A stretch of DNA of 63,227 nt, taken from assembly GCF_019599465.1 (NCBI RefSeq), contig NZ_RKLR01000018.1, forward strand, positions 1 to 63,227, given 5' to 3'. Each line of letters opens with the position of its first letter. The stretch's first letter is position 1. This document shows positions 6,277 through 39,952 of the stretch, one piece after another. This stretch comes from Haloarcula rubra (GTDB lineage: Archaea; Halobacteriota; Halobacteria; Halobacteriales; Haloarculaceae). The position numbers and the translations under genes are program-made. The notes beneath the pieces are model-generated. The model was not told the origin of the DNA. It did no database searches and saw only the letters and a list, made by a program, of their open reading frames with translations.

Positions 6277-7332
6277 TCACCGCGGTCCACGCTCACGAAA
6301 CACCTTCCCGATCTGGTCCCAGTCAGTCGAGACGTACTTCATCGTCGTGTCCAGCTTCCGATGTCCGAGAACCTTGGCCAACATGTGGACGGGGATTCCA
6401 TCTCCGTTGGGATCAGCAGGGTGCGTCCCGTTCGCTGAGTGGGACGCCATTGAATGGCGAAGCGTGTGTGCGGTCACGAGCCACCTCGTGTTACCGTTCG
6501 CATCTTCGGTGATCGGCTCATTGACTCCAGCCTCCTTGGCCTGTTCTTTCACGATTCGGCTGATGTAGCTCGGCCGCATCTTCGGCTTTTGCTGGGTGAG
6601 AAAGAGGTAGTCGGAGTCGGCTGCCGGCGCGTACGACTGGCGCTGCTTCTCGACCCACTCGCGCATCAGGAAGTCCAGGTTCTCGTGGTAGTAGACGTAC
6701 CGGATGTAGTTCTCGTCGCCCGCGTTTGCCTTCGCCGACGTGATCCGGATCTCGCGTTTCCCGAAATCGATGTCTGCAAGTCGAATGTTGGCCAGTTCGA
6801 CTGACCGAACGCCAGTCTGATACAACAACCGCATCACCAGCTCGTTGCGGATGGCCGGCGATCCGGGATGCTCGAATATCTTCTGAACGTCCTCAGGGGG
6901 GATGGCCACGACGGCGTCGTCTGTGTCACCGCGCTGTTGGAGCACCTTGACCTTCTGTGAGGTTTGCGGGTCGATGTGATTGTAGTCGGTGTCGTCCAGT
7001 GAGACGTTCTCGGCCGGGTTGGTTTCGCAGTAGTCTCGGTTGTACGCCCAGATGTAGAACACGGAGACGGTAGACAGGAGGGAGGCGACCATAGTGTCCG
7101 CCTTGTGGAGGTTTTGGTCTACGAACTCCCGTACGTCGCTTTCCTCTGCAGTCTTGGGGTTCACACCCTGTTCCTGGCAGTGGACCATCCACTGGTGGAG
7201 GCAGGAGCGTCGGGTTTGTAGCGTTGCAGACTTCCCCTTCCCCTTGAGGAAGGCGCAGTACTTGTCGTGGAGTTCCTTGTGGACTCCCGTGAGGCCTTCC
7301 GTATCCTCGTCGGCGTCATTACTGCTCGACAT
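6277..7332 (-). CDS. Tyrosine recombinase / integrase
   Basis: A 351-residue site-specific recombinase. The N-terminal SAM-like domain (residues 15-130) precedes a catalytic domain with Arg (TGVRSVELA, about 176), Lys (SAKANAG, about 201), His-x-x-Arg (HTLRH, about 289-292), His (LGHRK, about 324) and the nucleophile Tyr (TTMKYVS, about 333). All catalytic residues are present, so it should be active. It overlaps the upstream RHH gene by 14 bases. An ATG 24 bases further upstream is possible, but the MSSSND start is more like haloarchaeal relatives. It should excise or integrate the element; its att site was not identified. Confidence 0.92.
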   Translation of the reverse strand: MSSSNDADEDTEGLTGVHKELHDKYCAFLKGKGKSATLQTRRSCLHQWMVHCQEQGVNPKTAEESDVREFVDQNLHKADTMVASLLSTVSVFYIWAYNRDYCETNPAENVSLDDTDYNHIDPQTSQKVKVLQQRGDTDDAVVAIPPEDVQKIFEHPGSPAIRNELVMRLLYQTGVRSVELANIRLADIDFGKREIRITSAKANAGDENYIRYVYYHENLDFLMREWVEKQRQSYAPAADSDYLFLTQQKPKMRPSYISRIVKEQAKEAGVNEPITEDANGNTRWLVTAHTLRHSMASHSANGTHPADPNGDGIPVHMLAKVLGHRKLDTTMKYVSTDWDQIGKVFRERGPR

Positions 7333-7888
7333 AGTACACGTTGTGCGGGGAGCCATCGACGATCACGGTCTTGCTCTTCACGCGACTCATCTGCTGTTCG
7401 AGGAGCGCGAGAGCTCGGGTGACGTCGTACTCCGACGCATCGACATCTTGTGCGAGCCGCCAAGGCTGTCCCTCCCAGGCACCCGACTCCGTCGGCGATT
7501 TCTCCGATAGATCCTCCGGGGAGTCCACCCTGGGAAGCTCGTCGTGGAGTGTACTCGCCAGGTCCATCAGCTCGGTGTCCTGCTGGGCGTCGGTGGCGAG
7601 GCTAATCCGTTCGATCCGCTGGTTCACGCCCCGCAGTTCTTCCTTCATTTCGGAGATCTCCGCTTCGACGCCGCTCAGATCGACGTCAACCGGCTCCGTA
7701 TCTTGGTTGGGAATGTCGGGATCGATCCCTTCTCGAAACCCGATTCGTATTAGTTCGTTCTCGACAGACTGGCGGATGAGTTGCGTCAGCGAATCGTACC
7801 TGCCCGTCTCCTCGACGGCGCGCTTCCAGTCCGACTTGAGTTCGGGATCGAGCGCGATGTTGATCTGGTCTCGTCCGTTCCGGGGCAT
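7319..7888 (-). CDS. Ribbon-helix-helix protein in operon with integrase
   Basis: A 189-residue protein. Residues 1-55 (NGRDQINIALDPELKSDWKRAV...TQLIRQSVENEL) fit a ribbon-helix-helix DNA-binding fold. A coiled coil follows (about 75-105, heptad-like EISEMKEELRGVNQRI), and then a C-terminal domain that may be a second HTH (EYDVTRALALLEQQM). Such genes commonly precede haloarchaeal integrases and may act as excision factor or autoregulator. A TATA-like TTTATA (7921-7926, antisense) predicts a start near 7898, so a leaderless GTG start at 7900 in the same frame is an alternative. Confidence 0.75.
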   Translation of the reverse strand: MPRNGRDQINIALDPELKSDWKRAVEETGRYDSLTQLIRQSVENELIRIGFREGIDPDIPNQDTEPVDVDLSGVEAEISEMKEELRGVNQRIERISLATDAQQDTELMDLASTLHDELPRVDSPEDLSEKSPTESGAWEGQPWRLAQDVDASEYDVTRALALLEQQMSRVKSKTVIVDGSPHNVYYVEQ

Positions 7889-8230: not shown

Positions 8231-9046
8231 ATGCAACGCGACCACACACGTGACGAGATACTCCCCGCACAGGTGACACTCCACGTCGGGGCGGAACTGG
8301 AACTGCTCGACCGGGCGTGCCACGCCCCACGGTCGACCGAACTCGTCGTCGCGCCGGTCGAACTGCACCAGCGGAACGTCCAGCGACGGCTCCGCGAGGC
8401 GAGAGCGCCCAAAGACGCCTTCGAGTTCGACGACCCCGTCGGGCTGAGCCGCGACGTCCTCCGAGCGAGCGACGCGTCGACGGCAGCTATCGACCGCATC
8501 GACCGCCTGACGCTCGTTCGAGCGATACTCGACGAGTCGGCGTCTGCGTCGCCGACCGTCTCCCTGCCCGTCGGCACGCCGTCCGGAGACCCCCAGTACG
8601 TCGAGCAGATTCGGACAGATGTAGAGCGAGCGACCAACTTCCACCCCGAGCGCGTCGCGGCGTGGGACGACGCGGCCGGGGAACTGGACGCACCTATCGA
8701 CGCCGATACAGCGGCACTGCTGGAGACGGCACTCGACGTCGAGCGTGCCCTGAGAGCACGGACGGAGGAGGCCGTCTCAGAGACCGAACTCGTGCGTCGG
8801 GCGACGCGGGACCTCGCGGCGACGGACGGGGCGGCATGGGCGGCCGCCTACCCCGAGATACGACGGCTCTCGCTGGTGGGGCTGAGCAGCGTCTCCGCGG
8901 CGCTCGCGGACCTCCTCCACGCGCTGGTCGCGACGACGACGCTGGAGGTCCACGTCTACTTCCGGGAAGGGACCGGGGCGTACCTCGAAGGGCGGTTCCC
9001 GTCGCTGCTCGGTGTCGAGGACCCTGGTCTGGAGGTGTTCGAGTGA
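8231..9046 (+). CDS. AddB/RexB-like scaffold, N-terminal half
   Basis: A 271-residue protein matching the first half of an AddB-type inactive helicase. It has an LVVAPVELHQ strand, a helical insertion, and the late segment YPEIRRLSLVGLSSVSAALADLLHAL followed by EVHVYF. The last part is the typical 'leaf' strand-helix-strand where AddB evaluates its first helicase domain. No Walker A GxGKT is visible, so it is not an ATPase. It ends in GTGA, whose GTG starts the next frame. The next gene continues the AddB pattern, so the two may form one split subunit. The assignment is by motif order and context, not by search. Confidence 0.6.
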   Translation: MQRDHTRDEILPAQVTLHVGAELELLDRACHAPRSTELVVAPVELHQRNVQRRLREARAPKDAFEFDDPVGLSRDVLRASDASTAAIDRIDRLTLVRAILDESASASPTVSLPVGTPSGDPQYVEQIRTDVERATNFHPERVAAWDDAAGELDAPIDADTAALLETALDVERALRARTEEAVSETELVRRATRDLAATDGAAWAAAYPEIRRLSLVGLSSVSAALADLLHALVATTTLEVHVYFREGTGAYLEGRFPSLLGVEDPGLEVFE

Positions 9047-10284
9047 CGGGGACGGACCGGGCCGCGCTCGCGCGGCCGCTCGACGCCCCCGACGTACCCG
9101 TCGTAGAGATGGCATCCCGGACCCGGCGGGCAGAAGCGCGAAGCGTGATGGCACTCGTCGCGGCGCTCAGAGAGCGCGGTGTCCCGGTCCGTGACCTCGC
9201 CCTCGTCGTCCGCGACCTGGACACGTACGAGGAACCGCTGTTCAGGGCGGCGATGCAGTACGGCGTCACGCCAGTGTTCTGGACACAGCTTCGCGTGACG
9301 CGAACGCGGCCGTACGCGCTCGTCGAGTCGGTCTGTGACGCGCTCGCCGCCGAGCGGGTCGACCGGCGGACGCTGCTCCGGCCGCTGGAACACCGCTGGA
9401 CGCCGCCCGCGGGGGCAAGCGAGGAGTGGCCCGTCGAACCGGCGACCGTGCAGCGAGCGAGAGCGGCCCTGCCCGACGGCGCGCGGACCGTCACGGAGTG
9501 GGAAGCAGTGGTGACGGCGAGCGACGCCGACGAGCGAGTCGCGGCGTTCGTCCAGTGGCTCGACGAGGCCCCCGAACCGGACCCGGCGGCGGTCAGCTCC
9601 GTCCTCGGCAGGGTCGTCGAGGCGTACGCCGACCACGCGCTCCCCGAGACGAAGGCCGCCGACACGCCCGCACTGCTGGAGACGGAGACGGAGGCGCGTG
9701 CGGTCGTCCGGGTCCGGACCCTCGTCAAGCAACTCCGGGGGAAGTTCGCGGAGCGACTCGAGGACGGTACCGTCGACCGGTCGTGGGCCGACGTCGCCGA
9801 GTTGGCGTCGGTCGTCGCGACACAGCGGCCGGGACGCCGGGAACACTCGAACGCGCGTGCCGTGGACGTCCTCGAAGCCAACGACGTGTGGGCGCTCGAC
9901 GTGCCCTACGTCGTCGCCCTCGGCCTGACGGCCGACGAGTGGCCACGGGCGACCGAGTCGACGCTCCCGCCGGAGTTCCAGGAAGCGGTCCTCCGGGGGG
10001 CCGGCGAGACGTCGACACTCGCACCGAGTGCCGCGTGGACCGACGGCCGAGACAGGGACCACTTCGCGGACACGCTCCGCGCCGCCGCGACCGGCGTGGT
10101 CCTGACGCGACACACCGAGACAACCGGCGGTGAGACCGTCCACCCGTCGCCGTTCCTCGACCGTCTCGACACAGACGCCGTACCGACGGCCCAGATACAG
10201 CGGCTTCGGAGTTCCGAACGGACGCTGCCGGAGCGGATACGTGCGCTGCTCCCCGAGACGACGGAGGACGCGACGGATGAGTGA
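9043..10284 (+). CDS. AddB/RexB-like scaffold, C-terminal half
   Basis: A 413-residue protein starting at a GTG that overlaps the previous stop (GTGA). It begins with ARSVMALVAALRERGVPVRD and LALVVRDLDTYEEPLFRAAM. That is the strand pattern of helicase domain 2 of AddB/UvrD relatives ('E...V...L...G....D.AVV.R....Y'). It ends with ATGVVLTRHTETTGG and HPSPFLDRL, the AddB segment just before its nuclease domain. The PD-(D/E)XK nuclease and four-cysteine Fe-S cluster of bacterial AddB are absent. It probably forms a non-catalytic partner for the helicase-nuclease that follows, whose start overlaps by 8 bases. Confidence 0.62.
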   Translation: MTGTDRAALARPLDAPDVPVVEMASRTRRAEARSVMALVAALRERGVPVRDLALVVRDLDTYEEPLFRAAMQYGVTPVFWTQLRVTRTRPYALVESVCDALAAERVDRRTLLRPLEHRWTPPAGASEEWPVEPATVQRARAALPDGARTVTEWEAVVTASDADERVAAFVQWLDEAPEPDPAAVSSVLGRVVEAYADHALPETKAADTPALLETETEARAVVRVRTLVKQLRGKFAERLEDGTVDRSWADVAELASVVATQRPGRREHSNARAVDVLEANDVWALDVPYVVALGLTADEWPRATESTLPPEFQEAVLRGAGETSTLAPSAAWTDGRDRDHFADTLRAAATGVVLTRHTETTGGETVHPSPFLDRLDTDAVPTAQIQRLRSSERTLPERIRALLPETTEDATDE

Positions 10285-13200
10285 GGAAGCCGGTACCGAG
10301 ACGGACACGCCGATTCGTCTGCGGAACGCGCAGGCGGCGATTCGGGACGCGTACTTCGACCACGACTGCGGGCTGTTCACGCTCTCGTGTGTGCCCGGGG
10401 CCGGCAAGTCGACGGTCGCGTATCGCATCGCGCCGGAGGACATCCTTCGGCGCTACGTCGCCGGCGACCCGACCCCGGAACAGCACGTCGCCGTCGTCTC
10501 GTTCAACCGCGACGAGGCGGCCGACATCGTCCCGGCGCTCTGCGACCAACTCCGGACCATCGTCGAACACGACCTCTCGCCGGTCGCGTCCGAGGTGTCG
10601 CCCGCCGAGGTGGAGGTGCTGGTCCAGCGCATCCAGCGAGCGCCGTTCGTCGGAACCATCGACAGCCTCCTCCGGGGCGTGCTACGGGAGTTCGTCCACG
10701 ACCTCGGTTTCGACGGGATGCCGTCCGTGGGTAACGAGGCGCTGTTGCGGCGGGTCCACGCGGACTGCTACGACCTCCTCGCGTCCGACCCGGCACACGC
10801 GGCCCGACTCGACGCGCTCGACGCGGCGTACGAACCGGGCGAGTACGTCGACGGCGTCGCGGAGATGCTCGAACAGGCCATGACCTACTGCCGCGACCGA
10901 CGGCTCTCGACGGCCGCGTTCGGGCGGGAACTCGAGCGGACCCGGGCGTCGGTCTACGAGGGGCGACCCGACTCGTTCGAGGACGTCGTCGCGGCCGTCG
11001 AACGGGCCGTCGGCGACGACGCGGCCGGGGACGACGTGCGGGCGGCAGTCGACGGCGAGGACCGGGACCGACTCGTCGCCGCCGACCGGACCCTCTACGA
11101 CGAGTGGGGGGCCCGCATCGAGGACTTCCGTGCGCTCCTGTCGGCGTATCGGGCGGCGTATCGGGACCTGACCCGCGAGTACGGCGTCCTCTCGCACACC
11201 GACGTGGCCTTCCTCGTCACCGCGTACTTCGACGGGAGCCTCGACGACGAGTGGGCGGACGGCGTCGACGACGACCACAGACGGCGCGTGCGCCAGCGGT
11301 ACCGCGCCCGGTTGCGGAGCGTGATTATCGACGAGGCCCAGGACGTCTCCGAGATTCAACACGCGGCGCTGTCACACCTCGTGGACCCGGAGATGCGGGT
11401 CTTCGCCTGCGGCGACGTGTTGCAGTCTATCTACCGCTGGCGCCACGCCGACCCGACACTGTTCCAGTCGGCGACGACGGACGGCGAGTACCTCGGCGTC
11501 GACTGGACGACCCATCGCAACGAGACGGCGACGACGACGTATCGGTGCGTGCCCGACGTGGCCGAGGCAATCGAGTCCGTCGCCGCGCCGATGTTCGGCG
11601 ACCCGGCGCGGGGCGACGTCGGCGACGTAGAGACGGCGTTCCCGTCGCTCGACCCGGCACGGGACGGGACTGACGAGACAGCGGTCCACGTCGCCTCGTT
11701 CTCGAGCACCCACCGGCCGGGGTCGGCCGAGTGGGTCCACCCCGAGGACGGCGGCGGCGAGGCCGACGTGCTGGCGACCCTTCTCGCGAAAGGGCTCGCA
11801 GACGGCACGTTCACCGACGACGACGGCGAACCGCTGGAGGTCACCGTCCTGTTCCGCCGGCGGACGCGGATGCGCGACTACGAAGCCGCGTTCGAGGCCG
11901 CCGGACTGCAGGTTCGCAACGCCGGCGAGCCCCTGTTCGCCCACCCCGCGGTCGAGGCCGTCTTCGCCGTCTGCGAGTGGCTCGTCGACCCCGGGTCCCC
12001 GGAGCGGACGCGCGAACTCGTGACCGGTGGCGGCCTCGGTCTGGCCGCACTCGCCGACGTGTTCGAGACGCAGGGGTGGGACGTCGACGCGGTACTCGGG
12101 GCCGACGCCGAACGCTCGGCGGCACAGGAGCGGACGCTCACCGGACTGCGACGACTCCGTGACCGCCGCGACACCGTCGAGATGCGACCCGCGGCGACGT
12201 ACGTCGAAGACGTGGTCGAACGGCTCTCGCTCCGGTCCGACGCGAACGACTGTCTCCCCGACACCGACGACAGCCAGCGCGTCGCGGTCCTCGACGCGCT
12301 CGTGGAGACCGTCTCGGAGTGGGAGACGGACGAGCAGTACGGTCCGCAGGCCCTCGTCGACCTCGTGGCGCCGTTCCGAGCGACGCCGAGTGACGGGCCG
12401 ACACGGCCCAGTGCGTCGGGGTCGGCACACGACGTGACGTTCCGGACGATACACCGGGCGAAAGGTGACGAAGCCGACGTCGTCGCCGTGGCCGACCCCG
12501 GCTTCGACCTCTGGACGCAGGGGCCGGTCCACCAGCGGTTCCTCACGCAGGGGCCGGTCGCCGGCCTCGCGCCCCCGACCGATACCGACGTCCCGACAGA
12601 CGTCGACGTCCCGCCGTTCGTCGGGGGGCTGTACGCGCCCGACAGCGGCCTGACGCGGGACGTGGGCCTCCGCTGGGCGACCGCCCGGTGGGCCGACACG
12701 GTGACCGCTACGGCGGCGAGCGACGCGCTCGTCGGCCCGGACCGGTTGCAGCGAGTGGTCGCGAACGAACTGGCCGAGGCGTGGCGACTGCTGTACGTCG
12801 CGCTGACGCGTGCGCGGGACCACCTCGTCGTCCCGCTCCCGCGGTCGCTGCCGACCGACCGCACGCGCGACCGGTGGATAGAGACGCTCCGCGACGGGCT
12901 CTGCTTCGACGGTGGCACCGACTCGTACACGTTCCCGACACGGCGTGGCGAGCTAGCCGTCGGCGTCAACGACGTGGACGCGCTCGCGACCCGAGCGCGT
13001 GACTCGGGGCCGGCGCCGGTTGCCGACGTCGCCGTGACGCCGCCCCGCCGTGCTCGCCTCGAGTCGTGGGTGCCGCGGTTCCTCAACCCCAGCACGATGT
13101 ACCCGCTCACCGAGGACCCCGGCGCGCACGTTCTCGCCCACCTGCTCGGGGAGCCACTCCACACGACGGCGAACGAGGTGGCCGAGGACCTCCCGCTCCA

Positions 13201-13783
13201 CTTCGACGCACTGGGCCCCGAGGAGGTCGGGACGTGTCTGCACGACGCGGTGACGCGACTCGTCGCGAGCGACGTCCCCGAGAGCGACCTCCGGGCCATG
13301 GACAGCGCAGTCCGTGGCGTGTTCGACGACGTGGTCCGCGAGACGGCACCCGCCGTCGGCGACGCCGAACGGGCCGGTCTGTGGCGCTTCTTCGGCGACG
13401 TCGTGGCGGATCTCCTCGCGTCGAGCCTCTGGGAACGGCTCCAGCGCGCCGAGTGCGTCCGCGTGGAACACCCGGTCGACGGCCTCGTCGAAGTCGGCGA
13501 CGTCGAGGTAGAGGTACACGGCGAAGCCGACTTCGTCCTCGACATGCCCTCCGGCGAGCGGTACGTCACCGACGTGAAAATCGCGCTCGCGGCGCCGACT
13601 GCGGAGACGCGGCGGCGCTACGACCTGCAGGTGTCGGCGTACGCGTACCTCTTCGAACGGGAGACCGGGGCCGCGGAGTCGGTCCGGCCGACTATCGAGA
13701 CGCTCGGCATCGCGTCCGAGACGGTCACACCGTCGTGGCCCCCGGAAATCGTCGAGCGGCGCGTCGAGCGCCTGCTGGAGTGA
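10277..13783 (+). CDS. AddA-like UvrD/Rep helicase with C-terminal PD-(D/E)XK nuclease
   Basis: A 1168-residue helicase-nuclease. Motif I is CVPGAGKSTVAYR (about residue 36), motif II VIIDEAQDVSE (about 350), motif III ACGDVLQSIYRWR (about 377), motif IV VTVLFRRRTRM (about 520), motif V FRTIHRAKGDEADVV (about 722) and motif VI AWRLLYVALTRARDHL (about 835). The end carries a RecB-family nuclease: GTCLHDAV (about 985), HGEADFVLD, YVTDVKIA (DxK) and YDLQVSAYAYL (QxxxY). This is the AddA/RecB layout, used to process double-strand breaks by unwinding and cutting ends. The three overlapping genes are probably one transcript and one complex. Confidence 0.82.
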   Translation: MSEEAGTETDTPIRLRNAQAAIRDAYFDHDCGLFTLSCVPGAGKSTVAYRIAPEDILRRYVAGDPTPEQHVAVVSFNRDEAADIVPALCDQLRTIVEHDLSPVASEVSPAEVEVLVQRIQRAPFVGTIDSLLRGVLREFVHDLGFDGMPSVGNEALLRRVHADCYDLLASDPAHAARLDALDAAYEPGEYVDGVAEMLEQAMTYCRDRRLSTAAFGRELERTRASVYEGRPDSFEDVVAAVERAVGDDAAGDDVRAAVDGEDRDRLVAADRTLYDEWGARIEDFRALLSAYRAAYRDLTREYGVLSHTDVAFLVTAYFDGSLDDEWADGVDDDHRRRVRQRYRARLRSVIIDEAQDVSEIQHAALSHLVDPEMRVFACGDVLQSIYRWRHADPTLFQSATTDGEYLGVDWTTHRNETATTTYRCVPDVAEAIESVAAPMFGDPARGDVGDVETAFPSLDPARDGTDETAVHVASFSSTHRPGSAEWVHPEDGGGEADVLATLLAKGLADGTFTDDDGEPLEVTVLFRRRTRMRDYEAAFEAAGLQVRNAGEPLFAHPAVEAVFAVCEWLVDPGSPERTRELVTGGGLGLAALADVFETQGWDVDAVLGADAERSAAQERTLTGLRRLRDRRDTVEMRPAATYVEDVVERLSLRSDANDCLPDTDDSQRVAVLDALVETVSEWETDEQYGPQALVDLVAPFRATPSDGPTRPSASGSAHDVTFRTIHRAKGDEADVVAVADPGFDLWTQGPVHQRFLTQGPVAGLAPPTDTDVPTDVDVPPFVGGLYAPDSGLTRDVGLRWATARWADTVTATAASDALVGPDRLQRVVANELAEAWRLLYVALTRARDHLVVPLPRSLPTDRTRDRWIETLRDGLCFDGGTDSYTFPTRRGELAVGVNDVDALATRARDSGPAPVADVAVTPPRRARLESWVPRFLNPSTMYPLTEDPGAHVLAHLLGEPLHTTANEVAEDLPLHFDALGPEEVGTCLHDAVTRLVASDVPESDLRAMDSAVRGVFDDVVRETAPAVGDAERAGLWRFFGDVVADLLASSLWERLQRAECVRVEHPVDGLVEVGDVEVEVHGEADFVLDMPSGERYVTDVKIALAAPTAETRRRYDLQVSAYAYLFERETGAAESVRPTIETLGIASETVTPSWPPEIVERRVERLLE

Positions 13784-39877: not shown

Positions 39878-39952
39878 TGGGTTCGGGCGGATTTGAACCG
39901 CCGGCCTCCTCCATGTCAAGGAGGTGTCATAACCGACCTAGACCACGAACCC
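39878..39952 (-). tRNA. tRNA-Val (anticodon GAC)
   Basis: A 75-nt cloverleaf on the minus strand: the acceptor GGGTTCG pairs with CGAACCC, discriminator A73. The anticodon stem CCTCC/GGAGG holds loop TTGACAT, anticodon GAC (valine, reading GUC). T-arm GGCGG-TTCAAAT-CCGCC is intact. There is no intron and no encoded CCA. An AT-rich TATA-like stretch (about 39986-39996 antisense) may be the promoter. Confidence 0.93.

Follow-up and report, generated by a model that had tools for sequence, protein, structure and literature searches.

In this study, we characterised three overlapping genes, here called A, B and C, at positions 8,231 to 13,783 of a 63,227-nucleotide (nt) stretch of Haloarcula rubra DNA (contig NZ_RKLR01000018.1; hereafter the window). 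Sequence comparison and structure prediction lead us to propose, with a probability of about 0.82, that they encode a DNA-end-processing enzyme of the AddAB/RecBC kind composed of three polypeptides and a single nuclease; its activity and its assembly into a complex are what we infer. The features on which this proposal rests are as follows.

8231..9046, + strand: gene A, 271 amino acids (aa), predicted to supply domains 1A/1B, the N-terminal half, of a helicase-like scaffold of degenerate AddB/RecC type
9031..9037, + strand: Shine-Dalgarno-like GGAGGTG, 5 nt ahead of the B start codon
9043..9046, + strand: A/B overlap GTGA (A stop TGA, B start GTG), 4 nt, -1 frame
9043..10284, + strand: gene B, GTG start, 413 aa, predicted C-terminal half (domains 2A/2B) of an AddB-type scaffold
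10277..13783, + strand: gene C, ATG start at 10277, 1168 aa, predicted AddA/RecB-type superfamily 1 (SF1) helicase with a C-terminal PD-(D/E)XK nuclease
10388..10414, + strand: Walker A of gene C, CVPGAGKST, its GxGK invariant in 56/56 aligned loci
11324..11350, + strand: helicase motif II of gene C, IIDEAQDVS, conserved in the locus alignment
13229..13648, + strand: nuclease core of gene C, comprising H (GTCLH), D (GEAD), DVK and QxxxY; five of its residues (H, D, K, Q, Y) do not vary among split and fused loci

The three genes follow one another in the order A-B-C on the + strand, with an overlap of 8 nt between B and C. Neither A nor B contains a Walker A motif or a PD-(D/E)XK domain (no Pfam match at E <= 1), nor do they hold a four-cysteine iron-sulfur (Fe-S) cluster, each having one Cys, and on their own they match no family in Pfam, NCBIfam or PADLOC. 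The coordinates and domain scans confirm what an earlier sequence-only reading of the window had said on these points: where the genes begin and end, how A and B overlap at GTGA, which motifs are missing, and that an AddB-type half precedes an AddA-type gene.

Gene C matches the Pfam families UvrD-helicase (2e-16), UvrD_C and PDDEXK_1 (5.5e-10), and SF1 helicase motifs I-VI as well as the C-terminal RecB-type PD-(D/E)XK nuclease are all present and conserved. Its top NCBIfam model is addA_Gpos (Gram-positive AddA, 5e-20), and its closest solved chain by sequence is B. subtilis AddA (3u44_A). Relatives were collected in a first search of 60 genomes, with 40 further loci from a class-wide search of 391 Halobacteria genomes, and the helicase and nuclease residues of gene C are kept whether the accompanying scaffold is split, encoded in one frame, or full-length with a degenerate nuclease domain. 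As the sequence-only reading had supposed, catalytic nuclease residues are found and conserved in gene C alone, and the operon shows no other likely DNA-cutting component.

That A and B are two halves of an AddB-type scaffold is well supported by sequence profiles and predicted structures, again in line with the earlier proposal. The structure predicted for L025, a one-piece relative of 700 aa (mean predicted local distance difference test score, pLDDT, 87; predicted template modelling score, pTM, 0.85), has two confident halves. Among solved structures all five AddB entries rank first (Z 20.7-21.6), their alignments taking in about 605 residues and covering 2-718 of the 1166 in B. subtilis AddB; at the top Z of 21.6, 610 residues align to AddB 2-717, and UvrD (Z 19.4) and RecC (Z 16.3) score below. 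For gene B of the window, the AlphaFold2 model (pLDDT 85.5) has AddB as all of its best five Foldseek matches and aligns to AddB 292-716 (VIA Z 17.8), so that the helicase-like 1A/1B/2A/2B scaffold of the AddB fold is found in the one-piece relative and, for its part, in window B. Gene A aligns to residues 1 to ~265 of the one-piece relatives, whose model aligns from AddB residue 2. At the other end, gene B ends at a position matching roughly residue 717 of AddB, where the AddB nuclease region would follow, and the nuclease/Fe-S region that makes up the remainder of the 1,166 residues is absent from A and B together. The pair thus has the AddB scaffold without the C-terminal PD-(D/E)XK domain, the four-Cys Fe-S cluster or the single polypeptide.

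The sequence profiles point in the same direction. Window B is matched by the profile of the full-length, nuclease-degenerate AddB (5e-22), and profile comparison relates the one-piece truncated family to this full-length haloarchaeal family (99.9%, E 2.7e-33) and to canonical haloarchaeal AddB (93.6%, E 2e-7). In turn, B. subtilis AddB is reached by the canonical haloarchaeal profile (2e-5), by the full-length degenerate family (1e-9, with RecC second at 0.005) and by a mixed profile that includes full-length relatives (1.9e-6); with full-length haloarchaeal relatives in the profile, AddB is the top-ranking solved structure.

Several results weigh against this assignment. When a profile was built from split B proteins only, it found no AddB match among PDB sequences, and neither did a first mixed-fragment profile; the sequence link to AddB therefore runs through the full-length relatives. 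The evidence for the AddB fold comes from window B and from a one-piece relative of about 37% identity in the B part, and for window B alone UvrD-type helicases tie with AddB (Z within about 1.5). Gene C, for its part, reaches 71 bits with the curated addA model (TIGR02785), whose cut-off is 708. The tie with UvrD raises the alternative that A and B form an inactive UvrD-like accessory or regulator and not an AddB/RecC-type scaffold, and UvrD/PcrA structures do score high (Z 19). Nevertheless, the one-piece model ranks AddB first, with about 600 residues aligned against 380-545, the genes are linked in AddB-AddA order, and the full-length relatives carry the AddB Cys pattern, all of which makes a UvrD-like accessory very unlikely.

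The division of the scaffold into two genes is old and real, a long-conserved design. In the 60-genome search the module was present in 9/60 genomes, including the window's own; the window and four further loci have A and B in different frames, and five others have them as one frame of about 670-700 aa. Our inspected set comprises 28 split and 22 one-frame loci, and the A-B-C order with A and B in different frames recurs in 27 split loci besides the window. An ATGA or GTGA overlap of the A stop and B start is found in 27/28 split loci, L022 having a 1-nt gap instead, and a Shine-Dalgarno match of at least 5 nt precedes B in 18/28, compared with 4.5% of same-frame positions in A. Between the window and L020, the ratio of nonsynonymous to synonymous substitution rates (dN/dS) is about 0.29 for A, about 0.29 for B and 0.26 for C; together with codon-position differences, these values of about 0.3 indicate that all three genes are constrained as proteins, and both scaffold halves are under purifying selection. 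The junction falls in the low-confidence, disordered linker (267-282) that joins the two halves of the L025 model, which bears out the suggestion that the cut lies between two helicase-like halves.

The sequence-only reading had left room for a base error that broke one frame into two, and had asked whether relatives encode one frame or two. Sister lineages do have a single frame, as would be expected if the split came from faulty sequencing, or if a one-piece gene had recently become a pseudogene by frameshift. Because 28 loci share the split while 22 relatives keep one frame, however, the split is not a base error, and sequencing error was rejected as an explanation. The overlap of one kind in nearly all split loci, the selection on both halves and the Shine-Dalgarno site before B also speak against a pseudogene, as does the gene C tree, in which 27 split loci form one clade (support 100); we consider the chance of either negligible. 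The split scaffold of L097 (L097:7607-9711), also with a GTGA overlap, groups outside this main clade with one-frame L075, and for this reason the scaffold has probably been split twice, independently in L097. This was a quick tree with long branches, and the canonical AddB form was left out of it.

A different possibility is that a programmed -1 frameshift produces an A-B fusion, in which case the scaffold would partly be one polypeptide. A -1 offset between the A and B frames in every split locus except L022 would fit this, as would frame B being open far upstream of the A stop in the window. In L021 and L022, however, frame B is open only 12 nt and 4 nt ahead of the A stop, leaving almost no room for a -1 slip; moreover, no slippery heptamer is common to the junctions, and a Shine-Dalgarno site and start codon sit exactly at B. 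We regard such a frameshift as highly improbable, and favour the separate production of A and B.

The 391 Halobacteria genomes hold several forms of AddB. Canonical, two-nuclease AddB, with the four-Cys pattern and a DYK motif, is found in 86/391 genomes; four examples (L105, L107, L108, L110) match PDDEXK_1 at 1e-27 to 1e-32, and in the two of these four for which the following gene was scanned (L107 and L110) it is AddA-like. A full-length form that has lost the DxK motif and retains AddB-type Cys, represented by seven aligned examples (L101:7149-10748, L102:7670-11089, L099, L100, L103, L104 and L106), occurs in 11/391 genomes. An extra group of conserved Cys (C988, C1005, C1008 and C1014 in L102 numbering) is also seen in this form, not all of them kept in L103, L104 and L106; its nuclease domain is RecC-like and dead, possibly with two metal sites. 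Scaffold searches match in 73/391 genomes, and subtracting the 11 that match only via full-length relatives or fragments leaves about 62 genomes with truncated forms. Apparently decayed or fragmented scaffold copies, with stops or in pieces, were also seen (G120:C2:99488-99835; G332:C4:275154-277558). Taken together, this suggests a series from active nuclease to dead nuclease (RecC-like), to lost nuclease, to split scaffold, its order taken from anatomy. The sequence-only reading had held a bacterial-style helicase-nuclease to be notable in archaea, but AddB-type genes as such are not rare in haloarchaea. A 2009 paper by Cromie in the Journal of Bacteriology, on the phylogeny of AddAB and RecBCD, reportedly mentions archaeal addAB genes and AddB classes without Walker A or Fe-S; AddAB in archaea as such would then already be known.

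Among known systems, the module most resembles AddAB (RexAB; B. subtilis AddAB, PDB 3u44/4cej), with which it shares the B-then-A order of overlapping genes, an A-type subunit combining SF1 helicase and PD-(D/E)XK nuclease, and a B-type subunit with a helicase-like 1A/1B/2A/2B scaffold. It differs in having two genes for the scaffold, which is without C-terminal nuclease, four-Cys Fe-S cluster and Walker A. AdnAB likewise has two UvrD-like subunits and appears among the fold matches; both Adn subunits carry nuclease domains, whereas here the nuclease is in C only. With RecBCD the module shares one active nuclease in the motor subunit and a catalytically dead scaffold, the nuclease-like domain of RecC being inactivated (PMC1185551). 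In RecC, however, that domain is merely dead and here it is gone, so that the scaffold is no RecC in the strict sense, and in both fold and sequence it is nearer AddB. No RecD-type gene is present among the listed neighbours, and the genes A, B and C are all that stays the same from locus to locus. A UvrD-type helicase is similarly joined to a pfam12705-type nuclease in the UvrD-Cas4 fusions known from archaea and bacteria (PMC5704561), but the parts of that source used here describe no AddB-type scaffold partner, which gene C adjoins in the examined loci. HerA-NurA and Mre11-Rad50, presumed to perform the same task of archaeal DNA-end resection, are unrelated proteins.

How such an enzyme might work can be outlined from these comparisons. 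Gene C would take the AddA/RecB role of motor and nuclease, as a 3'-5' SF1 helicase with one active PD-(D/E)XK nuclease, and by analogy with RecBCD, whose scaffold has an inactivated nuclease-like domain, C acting on an A+B scaffold is the likely machine. Coupled termination-reinitiation, at the 4-nt overlap and its Shine-Dalgarno site, would yield A and B as separate proteins, and these would reassemble on C into a heterodimeric scaffold to guide the 3' strand and perhaps scan its sequence. In this lineage, AddB probably had its C-terminal nuclease/Fe-S domain inactivated before losing it altogether, and what was left of the scaffold was split later at the inter-domain linker. The complex would unwind and cut duplex ends, the nuclease of C acting on the 3' strand alone or on both, and its task may be repair, or plasmid maintenance and defence. 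The residues of B. subtilis AddB that bind Chi (F68 and F210) and the latch partner E129 belong to its N-terminal half, and the latch residue R629 to its C-terminal half (PMC4824097); because window B maps to the latter part of this scaffold (AddB 292-716), the corresponding positions would fall on separate proteins here. It is conceivable, though we put it forward tentatively, that in a RecBC-like three-subunit enzyme with separate 1A/1B and 2A/2B halves, a sequence-triggered switch, if present, could act through movement or exchange of subunits and not through an in-chain hinge.

The genomic setting bears on what the module is for. The window's genome holds a second split A-B-C module (L028, 7899-13568 of the 31.8-kb contig C14), 42-51% identical to the first, and relatives are found on 16 plasmid records, spread over >10 named haloarchaeal genera, under the annotations 'hypothetical protein' and 'UvrD-helicase'. 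No relatives were found outside the window's own order in a phylum-wide sample. Phage records and IMG/VR also gave none, so this is not a common viral gene. Flanking genes vary, with integrases, DUF7344 proteins, AAA ATPases and a few Cdc6/Orc genes recurring. Such a setting invites the view that the module is a mobile-element defence system, that is, a plasmid- or island-borne AddAB-like nuclease that degrades invading linear DNA and has little role in host repair. Consistent with this are the patchy distribution (73/391 genomes match), the many plasmid copies, the integrase genes among near neighbours, the two copies in one genome and the link to defence drawn for UvrD-Cas4-type fusions in PMC5704561. 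On the other hand, there is no constant defence partner, only a few of 91 near neighbours matching any PADLOC family, and several copies are on contigs of 2-3.7 Mb that are probably main chromosomes. We therefore see a purely defensive role as possible but doubtful, and the module is most likely an accessory one, often on plasmids.

The window's genome has a NurA-family gene at another site, and for this reason the module is a probable addition to the archaeal machinery. The Pfam NurA model also matches the Haloferax volcanii control genome, reflecting either an overlooked, divergent NurA-family protein or a broad model; a review states that H. volcanii is without NurA (PMC7776575). The Rad50 zinc-hook model has no match in the window's genome, nor in the H. 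volcanii control, and is thus uninformative. The same genome also encodes a Dna2-like protein (G000:C31, L006:8429-11257) in which a Cys-containing nuclease region of RecB type at the N-terminus is combined with a helicase of SF1 type at the C-terminus.

Around the module, a tyrosine recombinase lies just upstream (6277-7356, - strand; Phage_integrase 1.5e-23), a possible sign of an integrated element, and the window has a single tRNA, at 39878-39952. Directly upstream of A, on the same strand, some split loci have an HNH-type gene (82-89% identity to the one in L077) with a small gene of about 175 aa beside it (L077:4999-6301, L076:9639-10938, L081:5520-6768, L082:5713-6985); the small gene also occurs in L021 and L078-L080. 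The search for these genes did not find them in the window.

In conclusion, an AddAB-type enzyme that has been annotated as 'hypothetical protein' and 'UvrD-helicase' joins the end-processing tools of organisms in which mainly Mre11-Rad50 has been studied so far. According to one proposal (PMC1185551), the ancestry of RecBCD included an AddAB-like stage with an inactivated scaffold nuclease. Haloarchaea appear to hold that very step, in the full-length form with its Cys kept and the catalytic DxK lost, as well as two further ones, the loss of the nuclease domain and the splitting of the scaffold. Such natural variants let the roles of the second nuclease, the Fe-S cluster and the continuous scaffold be tested, and, if the proposal is true, one archaeal class would span, in living organisms, the steps from AddAB with two nucleases to a split scaffold with none.

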